A DNA stretch of 64,000 nucleotides from Robiginitalea sp. SC105 (GTDB taxonomy: Bacteria; Bacteroidota; Bacteroidia; Flavobacteriales; Flavobacteriaceae), in the NCBI RefSeq assembly GCF_014243345.1, contig NZ_JACLZF010000002.1:682001-746000 (forward strand), read 5' to 3'. This document shows positions 1,122-45,651 of the stretch, piece after piece. Each line of letters opens with the position of its first letter. The first letter of the stretch is position 1. A model generated the notes under the pieces. It was given only the letters and a program-made list of their open reading frames with translations. It did not search any database and was not told where the DNA came from. A program made the position numbers and the translations under genes.

Positions 1122-1142
1122 GGATCAATTAGAGAGAATAAG

Positions 1143-1168
1143 AAGCCGGCAAATTGCCGGCTTTTTTA
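1143..1168 (+). terminator. Rho-independent terminator after the LamG gene
   Basis: A perfect 8-bp stem AAGCCGGC / GCCGGCTT with a 5-nt loop is followed by a run of T. It begins 21 bases past the LamG stop codon. Confidence 0.9.
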
Positions 1169-1525: not shown

Positions 1526-2278
1526 ATGAAGAGAATTACAATTTCAATTTTGTCAATTTTTGGAATTCTCGCTAGTTGTAGCGATTCTGTATCCGACGAC
1601 TTTAAAGAAGTAAATGGTAACGTTGAGAACCGTAGACTACAGTCTATTTCTGCTATATCCGCAGGATATCCTGATGACGATAAATTCTTTTTGTTCACCT
1701 ATGATAGTAAGGACAGACTTACCTCATTTACTGATGGAGAAGAAACAGCTTTACTTCTTTACCAGGATGATAAACTCAGTAATCTTGCTGACTCCTATGG
1801 CAGTATTAGTGTGGAAGAATTATATGCTTCTCCTTACGACGCCTATAATACGGGACAAGTAGAGGAGTATGACAATAATGGTAATCCTAGGCTGCTTTCC
1901 TTTTTAGAAACCTATTATGATTACAATTTGGGCACTGACGTTCAGGAGCAATATACCTTAGAGATCTCTTATGACAATAAACCCAATCCATTCTATTTCA
2001 CCCTAGAATCAGCAGGCTTAATAGATGTTTTAGATCGTATACAGTTAGACTTTGGTATTCCACCGCAGCCGCAAGAATTGATTAGGGCTCGCTTGCTATT
2101 CCCTCTGAACAACCCTTCCCAATTGGTGTATAAAAATGAGGCAGGAGAAATTGTCTTCACCGTAAATGTGGATTACAATTATGATGGCGACTATCCTGTA
2201 TCAGCTTCGGTTATAGCCTTGTCTCCTCAAGAAGGTGGTTCGCGAAGTATTTCCATCACATTCCAATACGCCGATTAA
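1526..2278 (+). CDS. hypothetical lipoprotein, 250 aa
   Basis: The N-terminus MKRITISILSIFGILASCSD is a short lipoprotein signal with the lipobox LASC, so the mature protein is expected to be lipid-anchored. The body has aromatic, YD-like strands (FTYDSKDRLTSFTDG, EYDNNGNPRLLSF, ISYDNKPNPFYF) that resemble the beta-rich wall proteins of Bacteroidota in the DUF4595-like class, but I do not recognise a named domain with confidence. The gene stands alone: about 400 bases precede it after a terminator, and 466 bases of A+T-rich sequence follow. Function unknown; probably a cell-surface or periplasmic protein carried by the island. Confidence 0.75.
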   Translation: MKRITISILSIFGILASCSDSVSDDFKEVNGNVENRRLQSISAISAGYPDDDKFFLFTYDSKDRLTSFTDGEETALLLYQDDKLSNLADSYGSISVEELYASPYDAYNTGQVEEYDNNGNPRLLSFLETYYDYNLGTDVQEQYTLEISYDNKPNPFYFTLESAGLIDVLDRIQLDFGIPPQPQELIRARLLFPLNNPSQLVYKNEAGEIVFTVNVDYNYDGDYPVSASVIALSPQEGGSRSISITFQYAD

Positions 2279-2744
2279 ACTATAAAATCACTTAAAAGCC
2301 GAAGATCATATTTTCCGTCTTCAAAATGATCTATAATAATAAGATTGAAGATTTACACTCGTTACAAGATCGGCGATTAACTGCTATTGTTTATTGCTCA
2401 AATTTTTTGCCAAAGTATCGTTTCAAACGTATTTTTTGTGTAACCAATTAGTGAATTAAAATCGATCTGCTTTCATGGTTGGGAATTATTCTTAGGCCTT
2501 AAATGGGCAAAAAGCAACTCTTCTAATTATTTCATTAAGCCATTTCAGAACTCTTTTTTTATTGTTTCCCACTTAGGGATAGGTAATCAAGATTTAAATT
2601 CCTAAAAGAATAATTCATTGATAAATTAATAGTTACCGATTACAAAAGTTCTTTTGTAACTAACTGATTATTATCATATCTTATCCATTCCCACGGCCTT
2701 ACTTTTAGAATATACCCCCATTTCCTACTTTAAAACTATCCAGG
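2279..2744. other. gene-free A+T-rich interval
   Basis: No convincing coding frame, RNA gene or strong terminator is visible. A short imperfect inverted repeat (GAAGA ... TCTTC) lies around 2306-2327 but has no clear T run. The promoter of the next lipoprotein gene should be here, but I cannot point to a good TTTG/TAnnTTTG pair. Confidence 0.5.
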
Positions 2745-5700: not shown

Positions 5701-5774
5701 ATGCCTTATCCCAAGATAAACTCCAGTGGATTATTGATGATACATCTAGTTATTCTGAGGATTGTGGATCCTAA
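2745..5774 (+). CDS. BspA-like surface lipoprotein with TSP3, DUF285 and leucine-rich repeats
   Basis: This 1009-residue protein begins with the signal MKKRFFLLVLVFLVTP and the lipobox YWGC. Order of domains: a divergent InlB B-repeat-like module (about residues 30-98, ending TELTAEF); two thrombospondin type 3 calcium-binding repeats (about 102-163, DxDGDGxxDxxDxCP); about ten DUF285 repeats of the form FNQPIGNWDVSNVTSM (about 220-480); six more TSP3 repeats (about 500-695); then an LRR block with LDVSxNxxLxxLxCxxN periodicity (about 720-985). BspA/DUF285 and LRR proteins typically mediate adhesion or ligand binding at the surface. The Asp-rich repeats should bind calcium and act as a stiff spacer. 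No T9SS C-terminal domain is seen. It lies 80 bases upstream of a shorter relative with the same modules, so the two were probably acquired together. Confidence 0.88.
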   Translation: MKKRFFLLVLVFLVTPTIYWGCTKEADPETFTLTISISPKEGGSTSPSSGTFEEDKQITISAIPADGFNFHRWSGDVTSTSNPLELTLTKDTELTAEFLAEDLDADGVANDQDECPNTQPGEDVDDNGCSLSQVDTDGDGISDDTDLCINTTPGAEVDQNGCPIPSPIYLDQNGVTIKSYDWAEVGQQGVIDGVVYTIVDEVMLREMIENGEDVTRLCTTKVTNMRELFLDLTSFDQPIGSWDVSNVTSMNAMFLGAQSFNQPIGDWDVGSVTNMVAMFGSALSFNQPIGNWNMSKVTDITSMFSLAISFNQPIGGWDVSNVTSMSAMFNEAHSFNQDLSNWDVSNVYHMGSMFDGANSFNQPIGNWNVSNVTSMNAMFLGAESFNQPIGNWNVSGVTDMSLMFESSNFNQPLGEWDVSNVTNMNYMFEVTTSFNQPLENWDVSNVESMLGMFGSAGSFNQDLGNWNVAQVINCSLFAENTPQWIQPKPIFTNCDPGSEYDSDEDGVNDNVDQCPSTPVGETVDSSGCSNGQKDSDGDGINDDIDQCPNTPSGQGVDSLGCASSQQDTDGDGVTDNVDQCPGTPTNEVADSVGCSGSQKDSDNDGIADDIDLCPNSPTVETVDENGCSVSQKDSDGDGVSDDLDNCSNTPQGEIVDSNGCSDSQKDSDGDGINNDIDLCNDTPIGEEVDSNGCSLTSQTFVPDDNFEKYLIDSGYDDVMNNYVKTSEIRYVTLLYLRGLNIHDLTGIEDFENLTTLEVRNNNLTKLDVSQNRFLETLDCNDNNLSELQLGTNGSLTTLNCVRNQLTQLDVSKTIYLESLNFADNQISSIDLSNNVSLVQLRIDKNNLTNIDVSRNVNLNTLSCSENNLTNIDVSNNQLLEQFVCGQNQITSINVSNNPNLVLLYCEKNQLTSIDVSSNINLQGVDCSDNLITSADFSSLSSLGHLYIQNNQLTSLNINNNNNTNLALFSAYNNPLLRCIQVDDLFYALSQDKLQWIIDDTSSYSEDCGS

Positions 5775-5854
5775 TGAAATAAGGTGTCTATTGTTTCGTT
5801 CTTAAATAACAAAGCGCAACTATCATAAAGAGCATTATACATACACCCTTAATA

Positions 5855-8089
5855 TTGATAAGGTTCCGGTTGGTATTAATGGCCTTGGGAATCTTAGCCA
5901 CAGCAGGCTGCAGCAAGGATTCTGACGAACCCACAACTAATTCAAACACTCCTGATAATAGCCAGTCCTTTGAGATTTCCGGATCTGTATCTAAAGGAAG
6001 TTTCGTTGCAGGTTCATCTTTAACCTTTTTTGAACTTGACGACGAACTGAAGCAAACAGGAAGGAGTTTTACTTCCAATATTGAAGACGACCTTGGGAAT
6101 TATGAACTAAGTGCAACAGGGGTTTCACAGCCCTATACTCGAGTAACAGGAGAAGGCTTTTATTGGAACGAAGTTTCAAATGAAAATACTCAAAATCGTA
6201 TATCGCTTGTTGCTTTATCAAAGTTTAATAGCTCAATAAATGTTAATATACTAACGCATTTAGAAGCTGATAGGGTGAGATATTTATATACAGAGGAAGG
6301 ATTAACTTTTGATCAGGCCAAGGAACAGGCCTTGAATGAAATTTTAGCTGCATTCGATATAACCCCGTCAATTAGACTCAAAAATGCAGAAGAATTTTCA
6401 TTTAGTAAAGGGGATGAGACTAGCAAGATACTTTTAGTTCTTTCAGCTGTAATACAAGGAAATAGAACTGTTAGTGAAGTTTCTGTTTTGCTCAGTGAGC
6501 TTTCCTTAGAGTTTAAAAATAACGGCAATATTGAAGATGTAGATTTGATTGCTGAATTAGCCAGCGATTTGCAAATCCTTGACATGGATATACTCATTCG
6601 CAATGTGCTTAATAAGTACTCTCAGGCGTATCCAGAATTAACAGAGGAATCATTCAGAAGTAATTACCTGGATAGTATAAGGAAACCAAATGGAAAGTTC
6701 TTAGTCGACTTGGATTTCGACGGAGTGACTGATGATATTGATCAATGTCTAGATACTGAGGAAGGTACTGAAGTAAATTCTCTTGGTTGTGCGGATTCAC
6801 AATTGGATACAGATAATGATGGGGTTGCAGATGATCTTGATCTTTGTCCCAACACTAGTGAAGGTGATCCGGTAAATGCAGATGGCTGTGCAACAAACCA
6901 ACTTGATACTGATGGAGATGGAGTTGTGGATTCTCTCGATCAGTGCCCTGAAACGACTGAAGGACTTGAAGTCAATGAATTGGGATGTGCAGCTAATGAA
7001 AGGGATACAGATAATGATGGGGTTGCAGATGATCTTGATCTTTGTCCCAACACTAGTGAAGGTGATCCGGTAAATGCAGATGGCTGTGCAACAAACCAAC
7101 TTGATACTGATGGAGATGGAGTTGTGGATTCTCTCGATCAGTGCCCTGAAACGACTGAAGGACTTGAAGTCAATGAATTGGGATGTGCAGCTAATGAAAG
7201 GGATACAGATAATGATGGGGTGTTGGATTCAAATGATCAATGTCCCAATACGGATCCTGGAAAAGAAGTGAATCTGGAAGGCTGTGCACTTAATCAGCTC
7301 GACTCTGACCAGGATGGTGTTAATAATGAAGTAGATGTCTGTCCAAACACCCCACAAGGTGAAACTGTTGGTGCCTTGGGATGTAAGGACTTTATTTTTA
7401 TTGATGCAAATGGTATAACTGTAAAGGCGAGTCAGAATGCAGTAGTTGGGGACAGGAAAGTCCTAAACGGAAAGGAATATATTGTTGTTGACAGGCCTAT
7501 GTTAGTCGCGATGATCAATTCTGGTGAGGATGTTTCAGTAGCCGTAACAACACTGATAAACAATATGGGTGAGCTATTTGCAGACAATTCGAATTTCAAT
7601 CAAGATATCTCCAGCTGGGACGTTTCGAATGTGACAGATATGCATTTAATGTTCTATAGGGCGTCATCTTTTAATCAGCCAATAGGTATTTGGGATACTT
7701 CGAATGTCACCTCTCTTTGGGCCATATTTGCGTCAGCCTCATCCTTTAATCAGCCAGTAAATAATTGGGATACTTCCAAAGCACGATCGATGGAGGCAAT
7801 TTTTGGACAAGCAACGTCCTTCAATCAACCTCTAGACAATTGGGACTTATCTTCTGCTGTTGATATGATTGCTATGTTCTCTGGAGCGTCTTCATTTAAT
7901 CAGGATATTTCCAGCTGGGATGTTTCAAACATAACTGACATGCAGCAGATGTTTATTGGAGCTACCGCATTCAATCAAGATCTTAGTAGCTGGAACGTAA
8001 CCAACGTGACTACCTGTAATACATTTAGTGATAATACTCCAAATTGGATTTTACCCAAACCAAATTTCATTAACTGCAATCCCAATTAG
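5855..8089 (+). CDS. BspA-like lipoprotein with TSP3 and DUF285 repeats
   Basis: A 744-residue relative of the preceding gene. The start is taken as TTG at 5855: it gives a proper lipoprotein signal (MIRFRLVLMALGILATAGC, lipobox TAGC), while the internal ATG at 5879 would remove the basic n-region, and an in-frame stop at 5807 with no ATG between excludes longer forms. Residues about 40-285 form an unassigned globular region with helices. TSP3 repeats follow (about 290-505), including an exact 66-residue duplication, then a DUF285 block (about 545-735, FNQDISSWDVSNVTDM) close in sequence to the upstream protein. There is no LRR block. Probable role: calcium-stabilised surface adhesin or binding protein. 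Regulation is not visible; it may be cotranscribed with the gene 80 bases upstream. Confidence 0.85.
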   Translation: MIRFRLVLMALGILATAGCSKDSDEPTTNSNTPDNSQSFEISGSVSKGSFVAGSSLTFFELDDELKQTGRSFTSNIEDDLGNYELSATGVSQPYTRVTGEGFYWNEVSNENTQNRISLVALSKFNSSINVNILTHLEADRVRYLYTEEGLTFDQAKEQALNEILAAFDITPSIRLKNAEEFSFSKGDETSKILLVLSAVIQGNRTVSEVSVLLSELSLEFKNNGNIEDVDLIAELASDLQILDMDILIRNVLNKYSQAYPELTEESFRSNYLDSIRKPNGKFLVDLDFDGVTDDIDQCLDTEEGTEVNSLGCADSQLDTDNDGVADDLDLCPNTSEGDPVNADGCATNQLDTDGDGVVDSLDQCPETTEGLEVNELGCAANERDTDNDGVADDLDLCPNTSEGDPVNADGCATNQLDTDGDGVVDSLDQCPETTEGLEVNELGCAANERDTDNDGVLDSNDQCPNTDPGKEVNLEGCALNQLDSDQDGVNNEVDVCPNTPQGETVGALGCKDFIFIDANGITVKASQNAVVGDRKVLNGKEYIVVDRPMLVAMINSGEDVSVAVTTLINNMGELFADNSNFNQDISSWDVSNVTDMHLMFYRASSFNQPIGIWDTSNVTSLWAIFASASSFNQPVNNWDTSKARSMEAIFGQATSFNQPLDNWDLSSAVDMIAMFSGASSFNQDISSWDVSNITDMQQMFIGATAFNQDLSSWNVTNVTTCNTFSDNTPNWILPKPNFINCNPN
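6805..7200 (+). repeat. exact tandem duplication, 2 x 198 bp, inside the TSP3 region
   Basis: Bases 6805-7002 and 7003-7200 read identically, and the first ~20 bases of a third unit (GGATACAGATAATGATGGGG) follow at 7201 before divergence. The unit is a multiple of three (66 codons, about two TSP3 repeats), so copy change keeps the frame. Confidence 0.95.
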
Positions 8090-8511
8090 TTTTAAATTGA
8101 GAGAAATGAGATCCTATGTTTACCATAGGCCCAATTGCCGCTTTGCGCTACTAAGCAGTTTAATATTGACATTCACAGAAAGGATTATTACACAATATTG
8201 GAAAGCAGCTTAAATCAAGCTATTACCCTAGCATCCATTTATATACTAGGATTCTATGCCTTTCGCCAACAGGTTATTTCCTTAATTGATTCGAGTTATT
8301 TTTCATATCTGCTTACAAAATCCTCCTTTTGTTAATCGTCCGATCATAGTAATGCTTAGAAATTCATGTTATAACTGACCTAAAAGAGTTGGTCTTTGAT
8401 GGAATGATTCAACGAAAACCATAAAAATCCTATGGTTTCTATATAGAGCCTTAACGGCCATTTTTGGTATATTCTGAATTCACAATGTTCCCTCCCTTAA
8501 AGACTATCAAA
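8090..8511. other. gene-free A+T-rich interval
   Basis: Only short frames without recognisable features occur here. An 8-bp inverted repeat, AAACCATA / TATGGTTT (8416-8423 and 8431-8438), could be a weak terminator or operator, though the T run after it is poor. Confidence 0.5.
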
Positions 8512-9561
8512 ATGGCTTTAAAAGTATCTACCTGGAACATTGAACATGCCTCTGAACTTTTGGATGACAACCCTTCGAGCAATATAACGGATCGTATCAG
8601 GCGAATAGAGGAAACTATTACGGAAATAGATCCAGATATATTACTTATTGTGGAAGGGCCAAAAGGGGAGAAGGCGATCTCTGATTTCTGCCATGTAGTT
8701 TTAAATGATCAATGGGTACCGGTATTGCTTAAAGGCACTAATGATGCATTGGGGGATCTGGATCGGGACTATGGCCATGATATGCGCGGAACGCAGTGGA
8801 TGTGGTTTGTGGTAAAGCCAGGGATACTTTCCAAGTGCCGCATTCAACCGGCAAGTGTCTGGCGCTCTTTTATCGGAGATTCAACCTGGAGCGTTAATTA
8901 TTGGGGGCAAATACAGGCTGAGGATCATGACCATTATAGAATGCCGCAGGTCCTTATCTATGATATGGGAGGAGGTCATGAAATGGAACTCATAGGGGTT
9001 CATTTAAAGTCCAAAATCAATCGGGAAAGCATAACCCGCGATGCACAGGGGAATCTCACAGGAGCGTACCTGGAAACAGCTTTAAAGGCTCGAGTCAAGT
9101 TGGCAACAGAAGCTCGGAATATCCGCAACTATATTGATGTCAAATTCAATCAATTACCCAATCCAGGAATTATTGTTTTAGGGGATTGCAATGATGGACC
9201 TGGCAATGATTTATTTGAATACCAGTACCTATTCTTTGATCTGATTCAGAATCTCCAAGGAGAAGTTTTATTAGCGGAGCGCTATTTCAATCATGCACTT
9301 TTTGACTTCCCGGGAGATCTAAGGTGGACAGCTAAGTTTAGGAATCCAATAAAAGAAATTCCGACCTCCCAGAATCCGTTATTACTGGATCACATTTTAA
9401 TGAGTCAGCCACTCTGTAATGGAAGCCTTCCCTTGAAAGTAAATGCTGGCAATGGTTCGGTAGAACACCAGGCTTTTGAAAGGGCAAATGCAGGTTCAAA
9501 CAGTAGTACAAGGTCGAGCGATCATAGGCCTGTTTCGTGTACTTTAAATACCAACCACTAA
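8512..9561 (+). CDS. endonuclease/exonuclease/phosphatase-family protein
   Basis: The fold is shown by STWNIEHAS at the N-terminus, the metal-ligand glutamate in LLIVEGPKG (about residue 47), a GVHLKSK strand, GDCNDGPG (about 224) and the terminal catalytic SSDHRPVS (about 335). These are the conserved points of the EEP superfamily of Mg-dependent phosphodiesterases (DNase I, exonuclease III, sphingomyelinase types). I chose ATG 8512 because the EEP fold begins at once after it; TTG 8464 or ATG 8485 would add a tail without family features. There is no signal peptide, so a cytoplasmic nuclease or phosphatase is likely. About 200 bases separate it from the AAA_13 ATPase gene downstream. Substrate is unknown; an island-encoded nuclease beside a possible defence gene is suggestive only. 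Confidence 0.82.
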   Translation: MALKVSTWNIEHASELLDDNPSSNITDRIRRIEETITEIDPDILLIVEGPKGEKAISDFCHVVLNDQWVPVLLKGTNDALGDLDRDYGHDMRGTQWMWFVVKPGILSKCRIQPASVWRSFIGDSTWSVNYWGQIQAEDHDHYRMPQVLIYDMGGGHEMELIGVHLKSKINRESITRDAQGNLTGAYLETALKARVKLATEARNIRNYIDVKFNQLPNPGIIVLGDCNDGPGNDLFEYQYLFFDLIQNLQGEVLLAERYFNHALFDFPGDLRWTAKFRNPIKEIPTSQNPLLLDHILMSQPLCNGSLPLKVNAGNGSVEHQAFERANAGSNSSTRSSDHRPVSCTLNTNH

Positions 9562-9758
9562 GATTCCTGCCCTACCTTTTGAGATGTTACGATTGGGAAG
9601 CAGTGAAAAGCTAATTTTTAGTGAATTGTGATATTACCCTAACATTTCCAGAACCTTTTATAGTCTTAATTATTTTGCAGACCTACTTTAAACACACCTT
9701 TTACATAAAAACACTGGTAGATAAACAACTAAGATTCATTTTTAGCATTTAACGAAGG

Positions 9759-12134
9759 ATGATTACTAAGATCAAGCACTTAAGAAATTTAGCGGTTTTC
9801 AGAAGCTTTGACTGGGATTCGGAAGTTAGAGATAAAGGTAATAATGTGGTCCTTTTCAAAAAGGTCAATATTATTTATGGACGAAACTATTCCGGTAAGA
9901 CAACGTTGTCAAGAGTGATTAGAGCTTTAGAAATAGGAAAAATCTCAGATAAGTTCGATGACCCTGAGTGCTGTATTTGTATTGAAGGAAGTCGAGATGT
10001 TCAGGAATCAGATTTTGAAGACCACAATAAAGTAATTAGAGTTTTTAATGAGGATTTCATTGAGGACAATCTCAAGTTCATTGTCAACCCTGATGAGAAT
10101 ATTGAACCATTTGCAATATTAGGTGGGGATAACACAACAATTGAAAAGAAGATATCTGATTTCAAGGAAAAGCTTGGTTCCAATGAAGATGGTAAAGAAA
10201 CCGGAATTTATAAGGAACTTAAATCCTTAGACACAATATATCAAGCAGCAAAAAAAAGTTTTGAAGGCGCTCAATCTAGTTTAAAAAGTCAACTTAGCTC
10301 CAAGGCAACTAGTAGACCAAATGGAATAAAATACCAGTCCGATAAATTTGGCGATCAAAATTATAATATCACAAAACTTAATTCGGATATCGAAGTCGTT
10401 AAAAAAGTTGGTTTTTCACCAATAACGGATAATGAAAAGATGCAATTTGAAGGAGTACTTAAAGAGCAATCCAAAGACACTATTTCAGAATTAAGTGAAT
10501 TGACACTAAGTTTTCCAAATTTTAAGAATAAAACCAAGGAAATTGTTACTCGGGAAATTAGTCAATCTGACAAAATTCAAAGTCTAGTCAAGAACGCTGT
10601 ATTGAACAGATGGGTTAAAGAAGGAAAAGATCTTCATCAGGACAAACTGGAAACCTGTTCTTTCTGTGACAACAAAATAAGTGAGAATAGATGGAAGGAA
10701 TTGGATAAACATTTTGATGAAGAGTCAGATTATTTAGAAAATGATATTAATCAACTACTAAATGAACTGGAAGCAGAAAAAGAATTGATTTCATTGGCAA
10801 GTCTTATAAGTAAAAATGCTTTTTACTCAAGATTTCACGACGAGATTGATAGTCTTTCTGAGAAGTATAAATCTATATTAAAAAACTATGAGGAATCCCT
10901 AATTTCTTTAGAAACACAACTTCAACAAAGGAGAAAAGATATACTTAACGTCCAATCATTTAACTCAGTAAATGATTATTCATCAGAATTGGAAAAGATA
11001 AGATCAAAATATGATGAAGTAAGAATTTTGTCCAATGATTTTTCTAAAAACCTTAAGGAGGAGAAAGAAAAGGCTATGGATAGTCTAAGACTACAGGAGA
11101 TATATGATTTTATTCAAGATATAAAATATGATGAACAGATATCAAATATTTCTGACTTACATGCTAAAGTGAATTCTGCAGAACAATTTAAGAATGAAAA
11201 AGCAAAAGAAATAGATGAATTATTAGATCAAGTTTCAGCATTACAAAGAGAATTAAAAGATGAAAGTAAGGGAGCAGAACTAGTAAATAAATATCTAAAT
11301 GATTATTTCGGCCATAGTTTCCTCTCACTCAAGGCAATTGAATTTGATGAAGAGGATACAGGGAATAAAAAGTATCGTTTTGAAATCCACCGTGAGAATA
11401 AGAAAGCATTTCATTTGAGCGAAGGAGAGAAAAGTTTAATTGCGATATGTTATTTCATGGCAAAACTTCAAGATGTTGATACAAAGACGAAAAATCCAAT
11501 TATTTGGATCGATGATCCCATATCGAGCCTTGATAGTAACCACATTTTTTTTATTTATACATTAATCAATACCCAAATTTTCAAAGATCAAGATTTTGAA
11601 CAATTATTCGTTTCAACACATAATCTAAACTTTCTTAAATACCTCAAGAGACTTCCTGGAGCTTTGAATAAATCACAATCCAAATATCTAATAATAGAGA
11701 GAAATGATAGTACTTCGACAATTTCTGAGATGCCAAAATACATCAAGGATTATGTAACAGAATTTAATTACTTATTTAATCAAATTCTGGTTTGTTCTAA
11801 AATGGAATCTGTTAATGATGAAAACTATACGGCTTTCTACAATTTTGGGAACAATGCAAGAAAATTTTTAGAAATTTATTTGTACTACAAGTACCCTGAT
11901 TCTTCTGACGATATTGAAAAAATGAGAAAATTCTTTGGTGATAAAGATATTCCTACTGTCCTAATAAATAGAATAAATAACGAGTATTCTCATCTAACTG
12001 GAATATTCGAAAGAGGGGCTTCTGTGGTAGAAGTCCCAGAGATGAATAGAGCAGCAAAGTTAATTATCGAAAAAGTGAGTGAGGACGAAGATCAATATTC
12101 CGCATTACTTAGAAGTGTTGGGATACAAGATTAA
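9759..12134 (+). CDS. AAA_13 (RloC/PrrC-like) ATPase, possible anticodon nuclease
   Basis: A 791-residue ABC-type ATPase of the AAA_13 class. Visible motifs: Walker A GRNYSGKTT (41-49), the family-typical RVFNEDFIEDNLKF, a long coiled coil interrupted by a CSFC zinc-hook motif (about 300-303), the ABC signature LSEGEKS (about 551), Walker B IIWIDDPISSLD (about 580) and an H-loop VSTHN (about 620). The C-terminal segment has R-x3-E (ARKFLE, about 701-705) and a histidine about 40 residues on (EYSHL, about 745), the same order as the Arg-Glu-His triad of the PrrC/RloC tRNA anticodon nucleases. RloC proteins combine exactly an SMC/Rad50-like zinc-hook ATPase with this nuclease. The assignment to AAA_13 is firm; the nuclease activity is inferred. 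Its gene is very A+T-rich and lies in the island next to a DUF4160/HTH pair. Confidence 0.8.
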   Translation: MITKIKHLRNLAVFRSFDWDSEVRDKGNNVVLFKKVNIIYGRNYSGKTTLSRVIRALEIGKISDKFDDPECCICIEGSRDVQESDFEDHNKVIRVFNEDFIEDNLKFIVNPDENIEPFAILGGDNTTIEKKISDFKEKLGSNEDGKETGIYKELKSLDTIYQAAKKSFEGAQSSLKSQLSSKATSRPNGIKYQSDKFGDQNYNITKLNSDIEVVKKVGFSPITDNEKMQFEGVLKEQSKDTISELSELTLSFPNFKNKTKEIVTREISQSDKIQSLVKNAVLNRWVKEGKDLHQDKLETCSFCDNKISENRWKELDKHFDEESDYLENDINQLLNELEAEKELISLASLISKNAFYSRFHDEIDSLSEKYKSILKNYEESLISLETQLQQRRKDILNVQSFNSVNDYSSELEKIRSKYDEVRILSNDFSKNLKEEKEKAMDSLRLQEIYDFIQDIKYDEQISNISDLHAKVNSAEQFKNEKAKEIDELLDQVSALQRELKDESKGAELVNKYLNDYFGHSFLSLKAIEFDEEDTGNKKYRFEIHRENKKAFHLSEGEKSLIAICYFMAKLQDVDTKTKNPIIWIDDPISSLDSNHIFFIYTLINTQIFKDQDFEQLFVSTHNLNFLKYLKRLPGALNKSQSKYLIIERNDSTSTISEMPKYIKDYVTEFNYLFNQILVCSKMESVNDENYTAFYNFGNNARKFLEIYLYYKYPDSSDDIEKMRKFFGDKDIPTVLINRINNEYSHLTGIFERGASVVEVPEMNRAAKLIIEKVSEDEDQYSALLRSVGIQD

Positions 12135-12371
12135 AAGGACATACTTACCAATTAATACTTGAGTGGAATGAAGTTTCAAGGCATGCACAATTGTTTTAAC
12201 ATATTAAATTCTATTTTGATTGAAGATATGATTGAAAAGGACTACCTATCCATGGTCGAATACTGAGAAAACATAATATTGATCAAAGATTTTTAAGAAA
12301 TAATGCTGCCCAATATAGGAGTAAGTTAATTATTTATAAAAAATGTCGTTTAATTAAACAACTTTATTATA
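12135..12371. other. 237-base interval before the DUF4160 gene
   Basis: No coding frame or strong hairpin is recognised. It should hold the promoter of the DUF4160/HTH pair and possibly that regulator's operator. Confidence 0.45.
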
Positions 12372-12623
12372 TTGCCTACGTTACATATAGAGAATGGAAT
12401 TAAAGTTGAATGTTTTTCTGGTGATCACCCGCCACCACATGTTCATGTTTCTTATGGAGAACATGAAGACCTGATTATTATTAATTCGGCAGATATTTAC
12501 GAGGGTGATTTGCCTATTAGAAAAAGGAAATTAGCCATTGCGTATGTGGCGGAGAACAAGGAATTTCTTTTAAGAACATTTCTTTTCTTAAATCCTCAAC
12601 TCGCAAGAAATGAGAACAAATAA
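12372..12623 (+). CDS. DUF4160 family protein
   Basis: This 83-residue protein shows the DUF4160 hallmark near its N-terminus, FSGDHPPPHVHVSYGEHED, with two closely spaced histidines, followed by LPIRKRKLAIAYV. The start is TTG at 12372, which yields MPTLHIENGIKV and matches the family's usual MPxI beginning; no better ATG exists upstream. The gene overlaps the next one by 14 bases, so the two are translationally coupled. DUF4160 genes are commonly paired with DUF2442 genes, an arrangement often suspected of being toxin-antitoxin-like, though the biochemistry is not established. Function unknown. Confidence 0.85.
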   Translation: MPTLHIENGIKVECFSGDHPPPHVHVSYGEHEDLIIINSADIYEGDLPIRKRKLAIAYVAENKEFLLRTFLFLNPQLARNENK

Positions 12624-13521
12624 TAGAATATTGAAGATTACGGAAGTTAAATTCCCGAAGATTTACTTCATATCTAATAATGGAGATTATCGGGTAATTG
12701 ACATTAAAAAACTTTTCAAAAAAATAGAACTCAGAGAAGGCGATTTTGGTTATAGCATCCTTGTGGATAAGGATATGTTTAATTCTGTTGAATTGATAGA
12801 TAAATCTTTAGCATGGAAGAATGTATCGCAAAAAATGGAATTACCTAATGGCGAATTCATTGACTTGTACTTTCATTTAGATCCTATAGTTACTATTCAA
12901 AACTCAGAATTTGATTCAAATCCAACCAATTTTTTAAACTATGGAAAATCTATCAAACAAATAAGACGGCATCTAGTAAAAATATCTCAAGAAGAGCTGG
13001 GAGAAAAGATAGGAACGGATAAACAATACATTTCAAAAGTAGAAAATCACAAAACGGATTTAGAGCTTAAAACTCTTCGAAAAATCTATGAAATAGGTCT
13101 CGACAAAAAAGTCTGTATTGCTCATTATGATACACAAGATGTTCTGAAATCATTTGCTAACTCTATTCTTGAATATAAATTCTTGGAATGGGCAGACGAA
13201 AAAAAATTAGATTTAAAACTGATTGAAGGTATTGGAGATCAAATCAAAGACTTTCTGATTGAGAATGAGATAAAATCAAATGAAGATTTATCCAAGATTG
13301 AATTAGAAAAATTGATTGAATTAATTTCTAGTAAACATTCATTATCTTTTTACCATCATCCTTATACATGGCCAATCCAGGCAAAATTAATTATGAATTC
13401 CGATTGGGTAACTTTGATTAGTTTACAGAAATCAATATCAAAAAGTCACCTATCTAATTATTCTAAAATAGAAAAGTTAGCAAGGGAAGAAATAGATGGT
13501 GATTTGTATCAAATTCATTGA
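12610..13521 (+). CDS. DUF2442-HTH (XRE) fusion protein
   Basis: Residues 1 to about 95 resemble DUF2442 (KITEVKFPKIYFISNNGDYR ... MELPNGEFIDLYFHLDPI). Residues about 114-165 form a Cro/C1-type helix-turn-helix with SQEELGEKIGTDKQYISKVE. The remaining ~130 residues include a helix-hairpin-helix-like stretch (LIEGIGDQIKDFLIENEIK) and a segment I cannot assign (SFYHHPYTWPIQAKLIMNSD). It overlaps the DUF4160 gene by 14 bases. Most DUF2442 partners are small single-domain proteins, some with an HTH, so the extra C-terminal domain is unusual. By analogy with XRE antitoxins it may repress its own operon; that is inference. It is the last cargo gene before the integrase scrap. Confidence 0.75.
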   Translation: MRTNNRILKITEVKFPKIYFISNNGDYRVIDIKKLFKKIELREGDFGYSILVDKDMFNSVELIDKSLAWKNVSQKMELPNGEFIDLYFHLDPIVTIQNSEFDSNPTNFLNYGKSIKQIRRHLVKISQEELGEKIGTDKQYISKVENHKTDLELKTLRKIYEIGLDKKVCIAHYDTQDVLKSFANSILEYKFLEWADEKKLDLKLIEGIGDQIKDFLIENEIKSNEDLSKIELEKLIELISSKHSLSFYHHPYTWPIQAKLIMNSDWVTLISLQKSISKSHLSNYSKIEKLAREEIDGDLYQIH

Positions 13522-13553
13522 TCTCGGCCCAAATATATTTAAGAAGACGATCT

Positions 13554-13690
13554 TTAAATTGGAATATTGTCTAATTTTTTTAAAATACTTTTCTTCTCCT
13601 CACAAATCCTTCTTTGAACTATCTTTCCGTAGTATTCCTGAGTGATTTTAATGCTGGAATGCCCAAGCAGCTCACTGACAACCAAATATT
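13554..13690 (-). pseudogene. C-terminal remnant of a tyrosine integrase
   Basis: On the minus strand this codes for VVSELLGHSSIKITQEYYGK, nearly identical to the terminal LLGHSSIKITQEYYGK of the intact integrase 0.8 kb away, with the catalytic tyrosine region kept. Upstream of about 13690 the frame no longer resembles an integrase, so only about 45 C-terminal residues survive. The 64-codon frame up to 13748 begins with unrelated sequence. It is best read as the tail of an older integrase cut away when another element entered. Confidence 0.85.
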
Positions 13691-13821
13691 TCCCTGTCTT
13701 GAAAGGAGCAACAACCAACCTCAGCCATGCTCCGCTTCTTCCGCACATTACGCCGCCGCCTCCTAACTGAAAACTGGCTAATTCATCAAGAAAAGGGCAT
13801 TCGAGTAACTTATCCTGCTGT

Positions 13822-14196
13822 TTAGTTGTAATCAGAAATAAAATCCACGAACCCCCACCATAAGCCTACTACGGGCAATCCCACAACGAGTAGGGTTGCC
13901 CAGTTAGAAGCCCGCTTATTCTTAAGAAATACGCTGGTTTCAGGCCCATTATCTATTAAGGTCTTGACCCGCTGCCCCGATTTCTTTTGAAAGCCATAAT
14001 AACTGCCATCTTCTTCTACGATTTGCTCAAATTCAAAATCAACACCAAGCTCATTTACGACCTTGCTTTTCGATCCAGCATCTACGGCTTTATTCAGCGA
14101 TACAGGAGTTTTGTGGTAAACCACACAACTCTGAAAAAGGATCAGTGCGGTCATTAGGAGGGCACAAATTCTAAGGTTCTTTGATATTGGATTCAT
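13822..14196 (-). CDS. small lipoprotein, 124 aa
   Basis: The start is set at the ATG at 14196 because it gives MNPISKNLRICALLMTALIL followed by the lipobox FQSC; the longer frame to 14280 adds a stretch without signal character. The mature protein starts CVVYHKTPVSLNKAVDAGSK, a small Bacteroidota lipoprotein type in which a VYHKTPVSL motif is followed by a beta strand region (FEFEQIVEEDGSYYGFQKK) and a hydrophobic C-terminal stretch (WATLLVVGLPVVGLWWGFVD) that may be a second membrane anchor. No function is known to me. It lies between the integrase scrap and the intact integrase, on the same strand, 163 bases downstream of the latter. Confidence 0.72.
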   Translation of the reverse strand: MNPISKNLRICALLMTALILFQSCVVYHKTPVSLNKAVDAGSKSKVVNELGVDFEFEQIVEEDGSYYGFQKKSGQRVKTLIDNGPETSVFLKNKRASNWATLLVVGLPVVGLWWGFVDFISDYN

Positions 14197-14359
14197 GTTG
14201 CTGGTTTTTGTTAAAGGAAAGATAGATAGGAGACAGCTTTTAGGTGTCCGGTATTTTGAGGGAAGCAAATTTTCGGACATACAGCCCTGGAATCAGTGCT
14301 ATTTAGACACTAATTGATTAGGAAATCAGATCGTTTGCCGAGTAGTGGGAAAGAATATG

Positions 14360-15565
14360 TTATAGTATCTTGGAAATCCTTTTCATTTCATCACTTATCC
14401 GCTTTTGAACAATTTTCCCATAGTACTCCTGGGTAATCTTAATGCTGGAATGTCCCAACAATTCGCTCACTATTTCCATCGGCACATCATTATTTAAAAG
14501 CACTGTAGACGCAAATGTTTTGCGTGCCGTATGATGGGTAATTCGCTTTTTAATCCCAAGTATTCCTGCAATCTCCTTCAGATACGAATTAATCTTTTGA
14601 TTGCTCATTTGAGGTAACAAGTACTCCGATTCTGAATCATAAAACTGAATAAGTTCCTTGGCTTTGGGAAGCAACGGTAAAGAAATCAATTTACCCGTTT
14701 TGGACCGTTTTAATTTGATCCACTCTGCGCCATCGAACCCCAATTGAATATGCTCCCTTTTTAAAGCCTTCATTTCATTATAGGCCAATCCAGTATAACA
14801 GCAGAAAATGAAGAGGTTCTTTACGGTTTGAAGACGGGGCTGGGAAAAGGAGTGCTTCTCAAAAAGTTGAAGCTCCTCTTTAGTGAGAAATACAACCTCC
14901 TTCTTAACCCTTCTGGGTTTATAGAGAATGAAAGGATCTGATGGGAGTAGCTGTTCCGCGTAAGCCTCTCTGATAGGCCTTCTAAGGCGTTGTATGCATT
15001 TATTGATGGTGACCTGGTCCTGGCTTCTTTGTGTCTTTAAGAAGTACTCAAAATCCTTTACGAACTGCAGTGTAATATCAGTGAGTAAATAATCCTGTTT
15101 TTTGAACTTCCATTTAATAAAATCAGCTGTGTAGTCCCGTACGTATTGATATTTGATCCAGGTGGCCTCTTGAATTTCAATGCCGATCAGCTTCTTCAGT
15201 TTACTCAGAAATGCATTGAAATAAGCTATTAGGTATTGTTCTTCTTTAGGGGCTTCCTTACCCAAATAATCCCGGAATATATCATCAACAGTGAAAGCCT
15301 CATCCTCAAGTCTAAGCTTTAGATAACTGGACTTTATTCTGGTTCGGATGATTTCTAATTGAGCGTTAACTTGAATGTTCTGCTTTTTTGATTCAATCGC
15401 AACTTGATTTTTTGATGACCATTCGCTTGGATCTATGAATTCGCCTGTTGCGAATTGCTTGCGTTTGCCCAAAAAGGTGATTCTGCAATAAATGGCACAA
15501 ACACCTTTTTTGTTGATTCTTGCTTTAATCAGATAGAATAGAATTGAAATTCCTTTTTGATGCAT
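14360..15565 (-). CDS. tyrosine-type site-specific integrase
   Basis: This 401-residue protein is a typical Bacteroidota phage/CTn integrase: an N-terminal arm-binding region (ARINKKGVCAIYCRITFLGK), a SAM-like core-binding domain (about 100-215), and a catalytic domain with CCYTGLAYNEM (in place of the usual TGLR box), the lysine strand KRSKTGKLISLPL, HHTARKTFAS (about 344-353), LLGHSSIKIT and the nucleophile in EYYGK (about 381-382). It cuts and rejoins DNA at att sites to integrate and excise the island. It is transcribed away from the tRNA-Lys gene whose 3' end lies 229 bases upstream, with clusters of short direct repeats in between that could be its arm sites. No frameshift or missing residue is seen, so it may be active. 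Confidence 0.93.
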   Translation of the reverse strand: MHQKGISILFYLIKARINKKGVCAIYCRITFLGKRKQFATGEFIDPSEWSSKNQVAIESKKQNIQVNAQLEIIRTRIKSSYLKLRLEDEAFTVDDIFRDYLGKEAPKEEQYLIAYFNAFLSKLKKLIGIEIQEATWIKYQYVRDYTADFIKWKFKKQDYLLTDITLQFVKDFEYFLKTQRSQDQVTINKCIQRLRRPIREAYAEQLLPSDPFILYKPRRVKKEVVFLTKEELQLFEKHSFSQPRLQTVKNLFIFCCYTGLAYNEMKALKREHIQLGFDGAEWIKLKRSKTGKLISLPLLPKAKELIQFYDSESEYLLPQMSNQKINSYLKEIAGILGIKKRITHHTARKTFASTVLLNNDVPMEIVSELLGHSSIKITQEYYGKIVQKRISDEMKRISKIL

Positions 15566-15615
15566 GACAATTGATTTTGGTTAAACGATTGACACACAAC
15601 CCGGACTTAAAAATT

Positions 15616-15661
15616 GCATACCTAATTAAAGGGATGGTATACCTAATTGCATACCTATTTT
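15616..15661. repeat. three 12-bp direct repeats upstream of the integrase
   Basis: Copies at 15616-15627 (GCATACCTAATT), 15637-15648 (GTATACCTAATT) and 15649-15660 (GCATACCTATTT), the latter two abutting. They sit between the integrase start and the tRNA, where arm-type integrase or excisionase sites are expected. Confidence 0.6.
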
Positions 15662-15670
15662 GCTCTAAAA

Positions 15671-15744
15671 AGTTGACAAGTTGACGGCGAGCTGAAAATG
15701 CAGTTAATGCAGGCAATGCACTTATAATGCTGTTATGCAATGCA
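15671..15744. repeat. cluster of AATGCA and AGTTGAC short direct repeats
   Basis: AGTTGAC occurs twice (15671 and 15680). AATGCA occurs at 15697, 15706, 15715 and 15739, with a variant AATGCT at 15726, at 9- to 13-base spacing. This regular array next to the tRNA 3' end is another candidate for recombinase or accessory-factor binding. Confidence 0.55.
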
Positions 15745-15793
15745 TTAAACCAAAAAATCCAGCCACAACGAAGCGACTGGATTTGCTTGATTG

Positions 15794-15866
15794 TGACTTG
15801 GCTGGGGCTCGAACCCAGGACCCTCTCCTTAAAAGGGAGATGCTCTACCAACTGAGCTACCAAGTC
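15794..15866 (-). tRNA. tRNA-Lys (anticodon UUU)
   Basis: The minus strand folds as a full cloverleaf: acceptor GACTTGG / CCAAGTC, D stem GCTC / GAGC, anticodon stem TCTCC / GGAGA with loop CTTTTAA (anticodon TTT), T stem CTGGG / CCCAG with loop TTCGAGC, discriminator A; no encoded CCA. The 3' end faces the island integrase, and the sequence is intact, so the insertion restored the gene. Confidence 0.95.
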
Positions 15867-16031
15867 ATTATTTCAAAAAATGAACCGCCTGTGAAGCGGT
15901 TTTGGGCTGCAAATATAATATCTATTATTCATTTTTCAAGTGAATGGGGAAAGAATTTCGGGTTTGCCCGAAAAGCCGGATATTTGGGATTTCATTGGGG
16001 CCATGGGGCCAAAAGATATACGAAGCAAGGC

Positions 16032-41347: not shown

Positions 41348-43567
41348 TCAGAGCTTTTCCAGGATGGTGTTGAAGGTAGCGCTCGGCCGCATGGCACGGC
41401 TTACTTTTGCGGGATCCGGACGGTAGTAGCCCCCGATATCCTGGGGAAGCCCCTGGGCATCCAGTAATTCCTGCAGGATGTCCGCCGATTTGGATTCCAG
41501 GTCCTTAGAAATACTTTTGAAGGCTGCTGCCAGGTCCGCATCCTGGTCCTGGGAGGCGATCGCATTCGCCCAGTAACGCGCCAGGTAGTAATGGCTGCCC
41601 CGGGTATCCAGTTCGTTCACCTTGCGGGAAGGCGACCGGTTTTCCTCCAGGAATTTTTCCGTGGCTTCGTCCAGGGTGCGCCCCAGGATACTGGCCCGGG
41701 GACTCTTGTTTTTCTGCCCGTAATGCTCCAGGGACACGGCCAGGGCCATGAATTCGCCCAGGGAGTCCCAGCGAAGGTGGCCTTCCTCCAGGAATTGCTC
41801 CACGTGCTTGGGGGCCGAACCCCCGGCACCCGTTTCAAAGAGCCCCCCGCCGTTCATCAACGGCACGATGGAGAGCATCTTGGCGCTGGTGCCCACCTCC
41901 AGGATCGGAAAGAGGTCCGTCAGGTAGTCGCGCAGCACATTGCCCGTTACCGAGATGGTATCCTTCCCTTCCCGGATCCGGTCCAGGGTATAGTGGGTTG
42001 CTTCAACAGGCGACATAATCCGGATGTCCAGTTCATCCATGGTCTTTTCGGGCAGATACGCATGGACCTTTTTAGTGAGTTCCCGGTCGTGGGCACGCTC
42101 GGGATCCAGCCAGAAAACCGCAGGGGTACCGGAAAGCCGGGCCCGCTCAACGGCGAGCTCCACCCAGTTGCGCACCGGCAGGTCCTTGACCTGACACATC
42201 CGCCAGATGTCGCCCGCCTGCACGGGGTGCGCCAGCAACACCTTCCCGCTGGCCTGGTCCACCACCTGTACCGTACCGGTGCCGGCAATTTCAAAAGTCT
42301 TGTCGTGGGAGCCGTACTCCTCTGCTTTTTGGGCCATCAGGCCTACGTTGGGCACGGTTCCCATGGTCCGGGGGTCCAGCGCCCCGTTTTTTTTGCAGTC
42401 TTCTATGGTCGCCTGGTAGACCCCCGCATAGCTGCTGTCCGGTATCACGGCCTTGGTGTCCTGTGGCTTGCCCTGGGCGTTCCACATCTGTCCGGAGTTC
42501 CGGATCATGGCTGGCATGGAGGCATCGATGATCACATCGCTGGGGACGTGCAGGTTGGTGATCCCCTTGTCGGAGTTTACCATGGCCAGGGCCGGTCCCT
42601 TCTCCATGGCAGCCCCTATGGCTTCGCGGATGGCCGCCGCCTTTTCCTCCGGGAGTTTTCCGAGGTCGTCCAGCAGGCTCTCCAGGCCGTCGTTCGCGTC
42701 AATGCCCAGGGATTCGAACGTATCCCCAAACCGGTCAAATACCTCTTTGAAGTACGTGTGCAGGACGTGTCCGAAGATAATCGGGTCGGAGACCTTCATC
42801 ATGGTGGCTTTCAGGTGCACCGAAAAAAGCACCCCTTTTTCCCTCGCGCTCGCAACCTGTTCGTCCAGGAACCTCAGAAGGGCCGCTTTTTCCATGACGG
42901 TGGCATCCACGATTTCCCCGTCCAGGGTGGAAATATCTTCTTTCAAAACCCGTTTGTCCCCGTTGGCCCCAACCCATTCAATCCGAAGTTTGGTCCCCTT
43001 TTCCAGGGTGACGGATTTCTCGTTGGACTTGAAATCCCCGGAGGACATGGTGGCCACATGGCTTTTGGAGTCGGCGCTCCAGGCGCCCATCGTATGCGGG
43101 TTCTTCCGGGCAAAGTTCTTTACCGGACGCGGTGCACGCCGGTCCGAGTTTCCTTCCCGCAGGACCGGGTTCACGGCACTCCCCTTGATCTTGTCGTAGC
43201 GCCCCTTGATATCGCGGGCTTCCGGGGTGGTTGCCTCTGCCGGGTAATCCGGGATGGCATATCCGTGGCGCTGCAGTTCGGTGATTGCATCTTCCAGCTG
43301 GGGGATGGATGCGCTGATGTTTGGCAGTTTGATGATATTGGCTTCCGGTTTTTTGGCCAGGTTCCCCAGGAATTCGAGGTCGTTCGGGATGCGCTGGGCC
43401 TCGGTCAGGAAATCCGGGAAGGCAGCCAGGATGCGACCGGCAAGGGAGATGTCCTTGGTGGCTACTTCGATCCCGGCGGTACGGGCAAATGACTGTACGA
43501 TAGGGAGAAAGGATGCGGTTGCCAGGGCCGGAGCCTCGTCGGTCTTGGTATAATGGATGGTCGCCAT
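41348..43567 (-). CDS. icd: NADP-dependent isocitrate dehydrogenase, monomeric type
   Basis: The 739-residue monomeric (IDH-II) enzyme oxidises isocitrate to 2-oxoglutarate. Diagnostic stretches: [40 protein letters not shown] (substrate and Mg binding), [40 protein letters not shown], and [29 protein letters not shown] box on the minus strand (43594-43601) with TTTG upstream lies 26 bases before the ATG. Single gene, downstream of the RNA gene at 43.7-44.1 kb. Confidence 0.97.
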
Positions 43568-43689
43568 GAATTTTCGATCTTTTTTAAGCGGAGCAAATAT
43601 ACAATTTTAAGCGGGCAAAGACAGCCCCGCTCTGGGGAATGTCCCCGGGGGCCCTGTGAGGAAGTGAAGGCGGGCCGGTTATATAAATA

Positions 43690-44086
43690 ACAAAAGCCAT
43701 ATCATCGTAACGGGTACAGTGATATGGCTTTTTAAAACAGCTTGCAACTTTCTCTGTCAGGCTTGAAGCCTTCCAAGGCAACGCGGGGTTGCCGTTGAGC
43801 TGTTTGACGTTTGCAACGACATCCGGGGCTTATTTCTAAAACAAGGTCCGTTGGCCGTTACTTTTTTGTTGCTTAGTCCTTTTGACTTACAGGGCAAACC
43901 TGGGTTTTCCATGTAACGCATAAGTCCCCACCGACTCCGGAAGCTACAGCCTCCTTAGAGCGGCTCACCTTTGAGCCTTCAGGCATACCTGCCTTCCGAA
44001 CTTCAGGTTAATCAACAATACAAAGAACGCTGGCTTCGCAATGACCTTTCGCCGTTGCCATGGACTGGCAACTTCTACTAGATCAC
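43690..44086 (-). ncRNA. unassigned structured RNA, about 390 nt
   Basis: The 638-base gap between two minus-strand genes holds its own promoter (TTTG, 20 bases, TATATTTA) and, about 390 bases on, a strong terminator hairpin. Between them are many stable stems: GTTGCCA / TGGCAAC, GGCTC / GAGCC, GGAGGCT / AGCTTCC, GGCAAC / GTTGCC, GGCTT / AAGCC and AAACAGCT / AGCTGTTT closing the 3' domain. I find no RNase P signature (GAGGAAAGTCC), no tmRNA tag or tRNA-like end, and no SRP Alu or tetraloop motif. The limits are estimates from promoter and terminator. An alternative reading is an mRNA for a 51-codon frame at 43757-43912. Confidence 0.65.
43691..43735 (-). terminator. terminator of the structured RNA
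   Basis: The inverted repeat AAAAGCCATATCA / TGATATGGCTTTT forms a 13-bp stem with a 16-base loop. T-rich sequence follows on both strands, so it may act in both directions. Confidence 0.75.
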
Positions 44087-44090
44087 AGAA

Positions 44091-44122
44091 TAAATATAGG
44101 TCGAAACCCTCTCATTTCCAAA
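44091..44122 (-). promoter_or_regulatory. promoter of the structured RNA
   Basis: On the minus strand TTTG (44119-44122), 20 bases, then TATATTTA (44091-44098): a near-perfect -33/-7 pair pointing into the RNA. Confidence 0.65.
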
Positions 44123-44205
44123 AAATTAACACTTTAAAAAATTTACACGTTATAAACGTTAGATATTAACAATTGTTGATATCCAAAAGAGGTAGAGAGA
44201 GGTGG

Positions 44206-45495
44206 CTACGGAAGCTTGCCCGGGCTGTTGCGGTCTTCCCTCCTGAGTTGTCGCTGGATCTTGCGGATGGCGGATTCGATGGACTTGTCCGGCTCTATGA
44301 TATTATATTCGCCCCAGAAGCCCGGGTCGGCAAACCCAAGGGCTTCATCGCTCAGGATAATGGAGGTTTTCACCCGCTCCCGATTCCTCGGCATACCCGC
44401 TTCATTGAGTTCCCAATCGGTAACGGCCATCTCACAGCTCAGGCTGAAGACCGAATTGAAAAGCTTCCGGTCCCAGTCTATCTTGAATTCGAGCAGGGCA
44501 TTGCTGTATCCGTAATACCATCGTCCGTCTTTCTCCCGGTAGTCCACCCGGTAGGCTACCTCGGTGGGATACACCCTGGCATTGGCAGGTTTCCGCCTTA
44601 CAAACATGCGGCTGGCCATATCCTGGTCTGTAATGTTTAAAGAGAAGATGGCGCTGGTCAGGACCTTCTTTTCCCCGTCGATAAAGAGCCGGCCCCGGTA
44701 CAGGGGTTCTGCCACATCCTTTTTTTGTTCAAAACCGATTACGAAGATCAGCCGGTCGTCTATCCGCGTATTCCGTTCAAAATAGAAATTGTAATCATCT
44801 ATATAGTCCTCTGAAAAGATGTATTCCGGATATTTCATGATATCGACAAACAGCGCGTTGAAGGGACCCCCCTGCAATTTCAGGGCGACCGTGTCGAGTT
44901 TGTCGTAATCAGTGCTCTTGCGGGCCTTGTACAATTCCATGGCATCCTGGCGGGGAGACATATAGGGGGTTTTGTAAATGGTGACCACCGCTTCGGAAAG
45001 GGAGACATTGCGCCTGCGCTTCCGGATGGTTTCCCGGTAGAAGGCCGTCATCTTCGTGGGGTTGTTAAAATAGTTGTCCCCCACTTTGCGAAGGGTTTCC
45101 TTGACCAGGGTGGTCGCATCCCGGGGTACCACCACATCTACCTCGGGCAGGGAGGTCACCGACACCTCGAGCAGCAATTCATTGTCCTCCGGACTGAATT
45201 GCAGCAGGGGAACCTGCCGGCTCTTATACCCCAGGAAGGAGATTTCCACCATGGCATCGGTGACCGATTCGGGCACCTTCAACAGGAATCCGCCTTCCGA
45301 ATTGGTAACCGTACTGATATTGTACTGGTCGAGGGTGAGGGTTGCAAAAACGAGCGGATCGTTGGTTTCCGCGTCCAGGACCTGTCCCCTGTACTGCCTG
45401 AAACCGGCTTCGTCCCCCTGGGCTTCCTGGCTCAGCAGGGGCAGTGCCATCGATAAACAAATGCCCAGTAAAATGGGGAGCCTTAAAATTTTCAT
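44206..45495 (-). CDS. carboxypeptidase-regulatory-like domain protein, exported
   Basis: The start ATG 45495 gives the signal MKILRLPILLGICLSMALPL with cleavage near LLSQ. Residues about 33-115 form a CarboxypepD_reg-like beta sandwich (YRGQVLDAETNDPLVFATLT ... GYKSRQVPL). The remaining 300 residues (AFYRETIRKRRRNVSLSEAV, YIFSEDYIDDYNFYFERN, VAYRVDYREKDGRWYYGY) are a Bacteroidota-type outer-membrane-associated domain I cannot name surely. No barrel terminal strand is seen; the tail is basic. Probably periplasmic. It lies upstream of the RNA gene on the same strand. Confidence 0.78.
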   Translation of the reverse strand: MKILRLPILLGICLSMALPLLSQEAQGDEAGFRQYRGQVLDAETNDPLVFATLTLDQYNISTVTNSEGGFLLKVPESVTDAMVEISFLGYKSRQVPLLQFSPEDNELLLEVSVTSLPEVDVVVPRDATTLVKETLRKVGDNYFNNPTKMTAFYRETIRKRRRNVSLSEAVVTIYKTPYMSPRQDAMELYKARKSTDYDKLDTVALKLQGGPFNALFVDIMKYPEYIFSEDYIDDYNFYFERNTRIDDRLIFVIGFEQKKDVAEPLYRGRLFIDGEKKVLTSAIFSLNITDQDMASRMFVRRKPANARVYPTEVAYRVDYREKDGRWYYGYSNALLEFKIDWDRKLFNSVFSLSCEMAVTDWELNEAGMPRNRERVKTSIILSDEALGFADPGFWGEYNIIEPDKSIESAIRKIQRQLRREDRNSPGKLP

Positions 45496-45651
45496 GGGAT
45501 GCAATTATTATAAAAGTCTTTTTTCTTACGCTGGCGACCCCCGGGACCGGTTTTTACCCTTGGCCCGGAATGCCTATCCAAGTTACCATTTTCCGGCCAT
45601 ATCCGGAAGCCAAAGATTTCTTAACTTATCCGGAATTCAAACTACCTCCCG

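Follow-up and report, generated by a model that had tools for sequence, protein, structure and literature searches.

A putative stand-alone structured RNA gene of about 400 nt beside icd in many Flavobacteriaceae

Few bacterial RNAs near 400 nt have a covarying global fold, and some of these, such as RNase P and tmRNA, are central machines. OLE, GOLLD, and ROOL are likewise long structured RNAs; their families are in Rfam, and Rfam scans of the RNA described here gave no match to them. OLE occurs mostly in Bacillota, and its function is called unestablished in the available portions of two papers (PMC12286853, PMC12054373). The 6S-Flavo RNA (RF01685) is also a structured RNA of the Flavobacteriaceae, but has 108 positions, lies at another locus of the same genome and has no match here. 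The Rfp RNAs of Flavobacterium psychrophilum are independent transcripts from the same bacterial family, some of them structured, and deletion of one, the structured sRNA Rfp18, lowers the mRNAs of two metalloproteases, according to the accessible part of the report (PMC9723704). They differ from the present case in that six icd loci of a sister genus, g147, which is probably Flavobacterium, lack the RNA; identity with some Rfp is not excluded. The riboswitch candidates icd and icd-II, described in the available excerpt of PMC8632094 as proteobacterial three-stem junctions adjoining icd, resemble the RNA in lying upstream of that gene, but the RNA here is about 400 nt long and ends ahead of icd’s own -7 box. 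Finally, the L19-Flavobacteria ribosomal leader (RF03130) is an rplS-linked element of the same neighborhood, although it spans 29 positions and was found upstream of rplS (four loci), while the RNA lies downstream of it. No description of the RNA was found in the literature covered, including the available passages of PMC9723704, PMC8632094, and PMC5069720; most subscription papers, and supplements, were not covered and an earlier mention is possible.

The window, i.e., the whole stretch of 64,000 nt of Robiginitalea sp. SC105 that was analyzed, likely contains at 44087–43690 a stand-alone ncRNA gene, retained at a single position in many Flavobacteriaceae, with its own promoter and terminator, and with a product that is inferred to have a pseudoknotted fold and to act in trans. 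The features of the locus are as follows.

41348–43567, minus strand: icd, encoding a monomeric isocitrate dehydrogenase (PF03971, domain match).
43685–43732, minus strand: terminator hairpin P6 with a T-rich tail, from the fold and from pairing of its arm in homologues.
43690–44087, minus strand: RNA gene of about 400 nt, from the promoter and terminator positions, 46 distinct homologous sequences (own included) and covariation.
44091–44122, minus strand: promoter read from sequence, with the -33 TTTG at 44122–44119 and the -7 box TATATTTA at 44098–44091.
44140–44177, minus strand: upstream element of about 38 bp, AACAATTGTTAATA and then GTTTATAA and TGTAAATT, forming an array of GTTNATAA-like boxes.
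44206–45504, minus strand: cpd, encoding a protein with a CarboxypepD_reg-like domain (PF13715, domain match).

The original prediction had placed an RNA at 43690–44122, bracketed by a good -33/-7 promoter and a 13-bp terminator hairpin in an otherwise gene-free 638 bases. These features were indeed there, but 44122 belongs to the promoter, and a transcript start near 44087 is inferred instead from the -7 box. TTTG and TATATTTA were located on the minus strand, 20 bases apart, and presumably form a promoter of the Bacteroidetes type; a sigma-70-type scan also placed two overlapping minus-strand sites in the promoter region. The -33/-7 pattern, in a loose form, recurred in 40 of the 46 homologous sequences, and one of the six misses (L077) had been read on the wrong strand. 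The hairpin pairs 43732–43715 with 43709–43692 in a stem of 17 bp that contains the unbroken 13-bp arm, followed by GTTATTT. The coding-free gap, from 44205 to 43568 between cpd and icd, was 638 bases, as claimed. By BLASTN, the RNA was present as a single copy in its own genome and had no match in phage and plasmid records. No viral contig with the strict terminator pattern was found, and a pattern scan over 41 genomes returned one match, without a positive control.

A simple terminator scan found no terminator in this region; it may have missed the hairpin owing to a loop limit of 8. Across 54 sequences, 99.3% of the cells in the 13-bp arm were paired, with six of the 13 pairs invariant and three more varying on one side only. 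The stem is thus conserved letter for letter, beyond what would be expected of a plain terminator, which suggests a further role. Possession of a promoter and terminator of its own, taken here as a criterion of a stand-alone structured ncRNA, is fulfilled as judged by sequence alone.

Comparison of the regions beside icd in other Flavobacteriaceae, as had been proposed for checking the prediction, yielded the homologues. Of 60 genomes searched by BLASTN, 11 (own included) had matches, in some cases in the terminator palindrome only. Ten sequences of the 3′ domain were used to build a covariance model (R1), which at E ≤ 0.01 had matches in 211 of 299 genomes of Flavobacteriaceae, counting its own. 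Matches exceeded 60 bits in 42 genomes and were weaker in the remainder; with the weak ones included, the matched genomes cover 175 of 236 sampled genera. Cultured, named hosts include strains of Zobellia, Maribacter, and Robiginitalea. Gene order was resolved at 48 of 50 loci (L003 and L028 were not) and, after removal of four repeats, rplS or cpd lay upstream at all 44 distinct loci and icd downstream at 43, all on one strand. Twenty further hits, hand-picked rather than random, scored 35.5–55.7 bits in 18 cases and 74 and 83.5 bits in the other two; rplS or cpd adjoined all 20, and icd was within the fetched stretch in 18. The weaker family matches that were checked sit in synteny and are therefore real, the others being unchecked. 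One locus (L029, 2903–3188) carries a short form in which most of the 5′ part and the middle part are missing, and which retains the upstream element, the P5 domain and the terminator.

Beyond the family, model R2 matched 25 of 246 genomes of the order and 20 of 247 of the phylum, own included in each. None of icd, rplS, and cpd was found in flanks of about 1.5 kb around the hits outside the family that were inspected (0/8 in the order's other families, 0/8 among more distant loci), and model hits outside the Flavobacteriaceae look like chance. One of them scored 50.6 bits, so that a weak score alone is no proof. Two loci of g147, the most heavily sampled genus in the order-level model search, were among the R2 hits; neither had icd, rplS, or cpd in flanks of that length, and they too were counted as chance.

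The region is rich in stable stems, as the original prediction had it. The minus strand of 44087–43685 folded at -143.9 kcal/mol (z -4.96), with none of 100 shuffles as good; the plus strand reached -121 kcal/mol (z -2.86), likewise unmatched in 100 shuffles. In a set of eight sequences the antisense strand, too, folded better than its shuffles, with z between -1.9 and -4.6, and in two of the eight its z was the better one. Folded by itself, the window RNA shows the main consensus helices in its minimum-energy structure, and the elements below were drawn.

44041–44086, minus strand: helix P1 (44086–44080 with 44047–44041) around a hairpin at 44075–44051, from the fold.
44019–44040, minus strand: hairpin P2 of 7 bp with the loop CCAGCGUU, from the fold and covariation.
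44026–44030, minus strand: inferred 5′ strand of a pseudoknot, GCGUU in the P2 loop, for which pairing is possible in homologues.
43866–44018, minus strand: long-range helix P3 (44018–44013 with 43871–43866) around a variable middle domain, from the fold.
43813–43861, minus strand: helix P4 with an inner hairpin, from the fold and covariation.
43807–43811, minus strand: inferred 3′ strand of the pseudoknot, AACGU, nearly invariant on comparison of homologues.
43735–43805, minus strand: three-way junction P5 with hairpins at 43793–43777 and 43776–43754, from the fold and covariation.

Covariation was assessed on several alignments. When 10 sequences were aligned with MAFFT without structure, a hand-drawn 3′-domain structure of 42 pairs had 95.9% of its cells paired, and nine pairs had double changes compared to 4.1 in shuffled alignments (0/500). 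Among 54 sequences aligned with the model (alignment A3), double changes occurred in 32 of the 42 pairs, in 188 cells against 36.5 when shuffled, and the covariation score was 0.331 compared to 0.143 for shuffles, with 0/500 as high and slid controls at 0.054–0.072. The cut for A3 (E 3.5e-10) excluded reverse-strand palindrome matches and also lost weaker true homologues. Its result leans towards structure because the aligning model holds structure. For the whole RNA, RNAalifold was applied to 36 sequences (alignment without L029, L019, L030, and the seven Robiginitalea rows) and drew 13 helices past the promoter region, including one next to P3 that consists of just one pair. Pairs that it also drew within the upstream DNA were excluded, the count leaving out any helix that starts before column 60. 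Double-change cells exceeded all 200 shuffles in 12 of the 13 helices; the exception was a nearly invariant hairpin, GCAAUC-AAU-GGUUGC, for which six of 200 shuffles were as high. This result also leans towards structure, since the structure tested had come from that very alignment. On a plain MAFFT alignment (A1), RNAalifold recovered the terminator stem only, with 17 pairs, one of them with double changes; in A1 the P5 strand of the Robiginitalea rows was one base out of register.

At the level of single helices, consensus P1 had 36 double-change cells compared to 11.5 in shuffles (36 sequences) and P2 had 12 compared to 2.7. Eight of eight consensus pairs of P3 had double changes, as did every pair of the three helices of P5 (54 sequences). 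P2 formed 7/7 pairs in 36 of the 46 sequences, 6/6 in three and 6/7 in seven; the best-paired CGT was chosen by script for this count, and the L029 entry is no genuine P2. The compensatory changes in stems that were named in advance as support for the prediction are thus strong. Compensatory base change, as a further criterion of a stand-alone structured ncRNA, is satisfied in these alignments.

The P2 loop is conserved, with 8 bases ending in RCGUU, and probably pairs with the downstream AACGU as a pseudoknot, which is inferred and not proven. In the window RNA, AACGU lies about 215 nt downstream of the P2 loop. At least five contiguous pairs between the loop and an AACGY immediately before P5 were possible in 45 of 46 sequences, at a distance of 180–246 nt (median 225, 45 sequences), although two partners in this count are probably wrong picks. 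Variation consisted of G-C for G-U in two sequences and C-G in three, with the register shifted, and the position next to the pseudoknot pairs was often mismatched. Covariation of the pseudoknot is thin because both strands are nearly invariant.

No Rfam 15 family matched the window RNA at the gathering score, and at E up to 10 only three matches appeared, with E of 0.73 or worse and far below the cut-off. Six homologous loci (L027, L037, L040, L132, L142, and L069) also gave no family at the cut-off; in L069, from Zobellia, the highest-scoring match below threshold on the RNA strand was SurA, with 21.2 bits of the 100 needed (E 0.003). A known family recognized by Infernal would have refuted the prediction, and none was obtained at the cut-off. 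The original prediction had noted, as far as could be checked by eye, a lack of the signatures of RNase P, tmRNA, SRP, and known riboswitches. Together with the strong covariation this supports a large, stand-alone structured RNA, and the bounded locus as a whole was confirmed by promoter, terminator, gap, fold, homologues and covariation. Within what was covered, both the RNA class and its fold are new, and the RNA is absent from the Rfam 15 copy searched; large orphan RNAs are already known as such, and no new function has been shown.

Homologues, synteny, covariation, promoter, terminator and independence from icd are established by sequence, while transcription, the pseudoknot, action in trans, a regulator and a protein partner are inferred, there being no expression data. 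On this basis, transcription would begin at the RNA’s own promoter, which a protein bound to the upstream box array probably switches, and would stop at the RNA’s own terminator, giving a transcript of about 400 nt. This transcript would fold into P1, P2, the long-range P3 round the variable middle, P4, the three-way P5 and the terminator stem, and the P2 loop would probably pair with the AACGU before P5, compacting the molecule. Thus folded, it may act in trans, the likeliest roles being a structured regulator or the core of an RNA–protein particle.

Particle core or regulator is favored over a plain antisense RNA because the global fold is kept more than any long unpaired stretch. A trans-acting antisense RNA nevertheless remains possible, if rather doubtful: short unpaired segments, e.g., the AAGAAA linker between P3 and P4, would pair with mRNAs, and the large fold would mainly protect the RNA. 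Conserved unpaired stretches such as this linker do exist, and a promoter and intrinsic terminator of its own, by sequence, are as in known sRNAs. On the other side, a length of about 400 nt together with roughly a dozen conserved helices and a likely pseudoknot would, in our judgment, be unusual for sRNAs of the antisense type. Rfp18 of F. psychrophilum provides a precedent for the antisense reading, as far as the accessible part of the source goes (PMC9723704).

The upstream element is conserved among 46 sequences, with the consensus TATgAACAATTGTTaAtAac....GTT.AtAa..TGTtgATT. We infer that the box array is the binding site of a regulator protein. Its repeated GTTNATAA resembles the DnaA box consensus. 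A bolder form of the particle-core reading, which we regard as improbable, is that a new class of large pseudoknotted RNA forms the core of a family-wide RNA–protein particle, with DnaA-type boxes coupling its transcription to replication or growth; if it were true, the sister genus without the RNA would be a natural knockout.

It is very unlikely that the locus is primarily a DNA element of replication control, with the array as a DnaA-binding site and the RNA secondary. Apart from the likeness of the GTTNATAA repeats to the DnaA box, such an element would account for an array that is seemingly more conserved than the promoter, and for the exact 14-mer AACAATTGTTRATA, which was present in four of six genomes searched and, in those four, solely at this locus. 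One-mismatch copies of AACAATTGTTRATA elsewhere were about as common as those of a reversed control. Against it, the RNA helices covary, which is not required of a DNA site, and in G002, a relative with a complete genome, GC skew (taken from 20 samples and afterwards over 360 kb) had its minimum near 0.78–0.86 Mb, compared to 1.975 Mb for the RNA. An origin of replication at the RNA locus is likewise rejected by GC skew, in this one complete relative. An AT-rich gap near 792 kb of G002 contains TTATCAACG and TTATCGACA, so that a DnaA-like reading of the boxes is still possible, although unproven.

Related boxes were also seen before other genes. A related inverted pair, TGTTGATAAC..GTTTATCAACA (L162, about 1093–1130; G002, about 581.09 kb), lies directly before a gene other than the RNA, which we take to encode a DUF3078 protein. 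In two Bacteroidota MAGs (L021, 3240–3867; L023, 770–1290), the box array precedes other stretches of about 500 bases that both contain GAAGCTACGGC and have terminator-like hairpins at their end; nothing in them was above the Rfam cut-off, and they may represent another orphan RNA that shares this control. In two Bacteroidales MAGs (L038, 2804–2836; L043, 5329–5361), the array stands before a protein gene whose sequence is similar in the two.

A cis-acting leader or attenuator of icd is largely refuted and keeps only a slim chance. The position of icd, which starts about 86–282 bases past the hairpin on the same strand at the loci for which a distance is given, would suit a leader. However, TTGTATATTTGC (43604–43593, minus strand) includes a -7 box belonging to icd itself, and TAnnTTTGC occurred at most 60 bases before icd at 11 of 11 loci, so that the gene is preceded first by a terminator and next by a -7 box of its own. 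Moreover, the RNA and icd occur without each other. In g147, the icd protein was found in 27 of 31 genomes and rplS adjoins icd at four of six loci, yet even with E up to 10 allowed, the RNA model matched none of these six icd loci but did match the two control loci; the RNA is therefore dispensable there. The L19 protein of one g147 member differs at four of 94 residues from PDB chain 7jil_P, which we take to be Flavobacterium johnsoniae, and by inference this large sister genus is probably Flavobacterium. Conversely, in L087 the RNA follows rplS with no adjoining icd, showing that it is not an icd leader. Transcription into icd and retention only with icd, the criterion for a cis-regulatory leader, was thus not fulfilled at the loci compared, as judged by sequence.

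A small protein-coding gene is thought very unlikely. The RNA contains a frame of 54 codons (43757–43921, minus strand), which by BLASTP matched the longest frames of two of six other Robiginitalea sequences directly, a third being linked through one of those two, and 16 of the 46 longest frames matched another, in groups of two to four and in some cases between genera. On the other hand, the longest frames ranged from 6 to 100 codons with none common to the 46 sequences, and conservation tracks base pairs (no codon-substitution test); the 54-codon frame is probably a by-product of RNA conservation. Weakest is a derived housekeeping RNA (RNase P, tmRNA, or 6S), suggested by a bounded, structured RNA close in size to RNase P and tmRNA but refuted for the present set, since the RNA matches none of them and covariance models placed each elsewhere in the genome, with the sole match to RNase P class A (RF00010) at C2:811788–812112 (183 bits), the sole match to tmRNA (RF00023) over the cut-off at C2:260488–260884 (148 bits; six weaker ones likewise elsewhere) and one match to 6S-Flavo at C2:584701–584807 (108 bits).

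Elsewhere in the window, positions 1–16000 had a G+C content of roughly 0.32–0.40, compared to about 0.5–0.6 in the remainder. The shift occurs near a tRNA gene (15794–15866, minus strand), and this part of the window looks like an integrated island.
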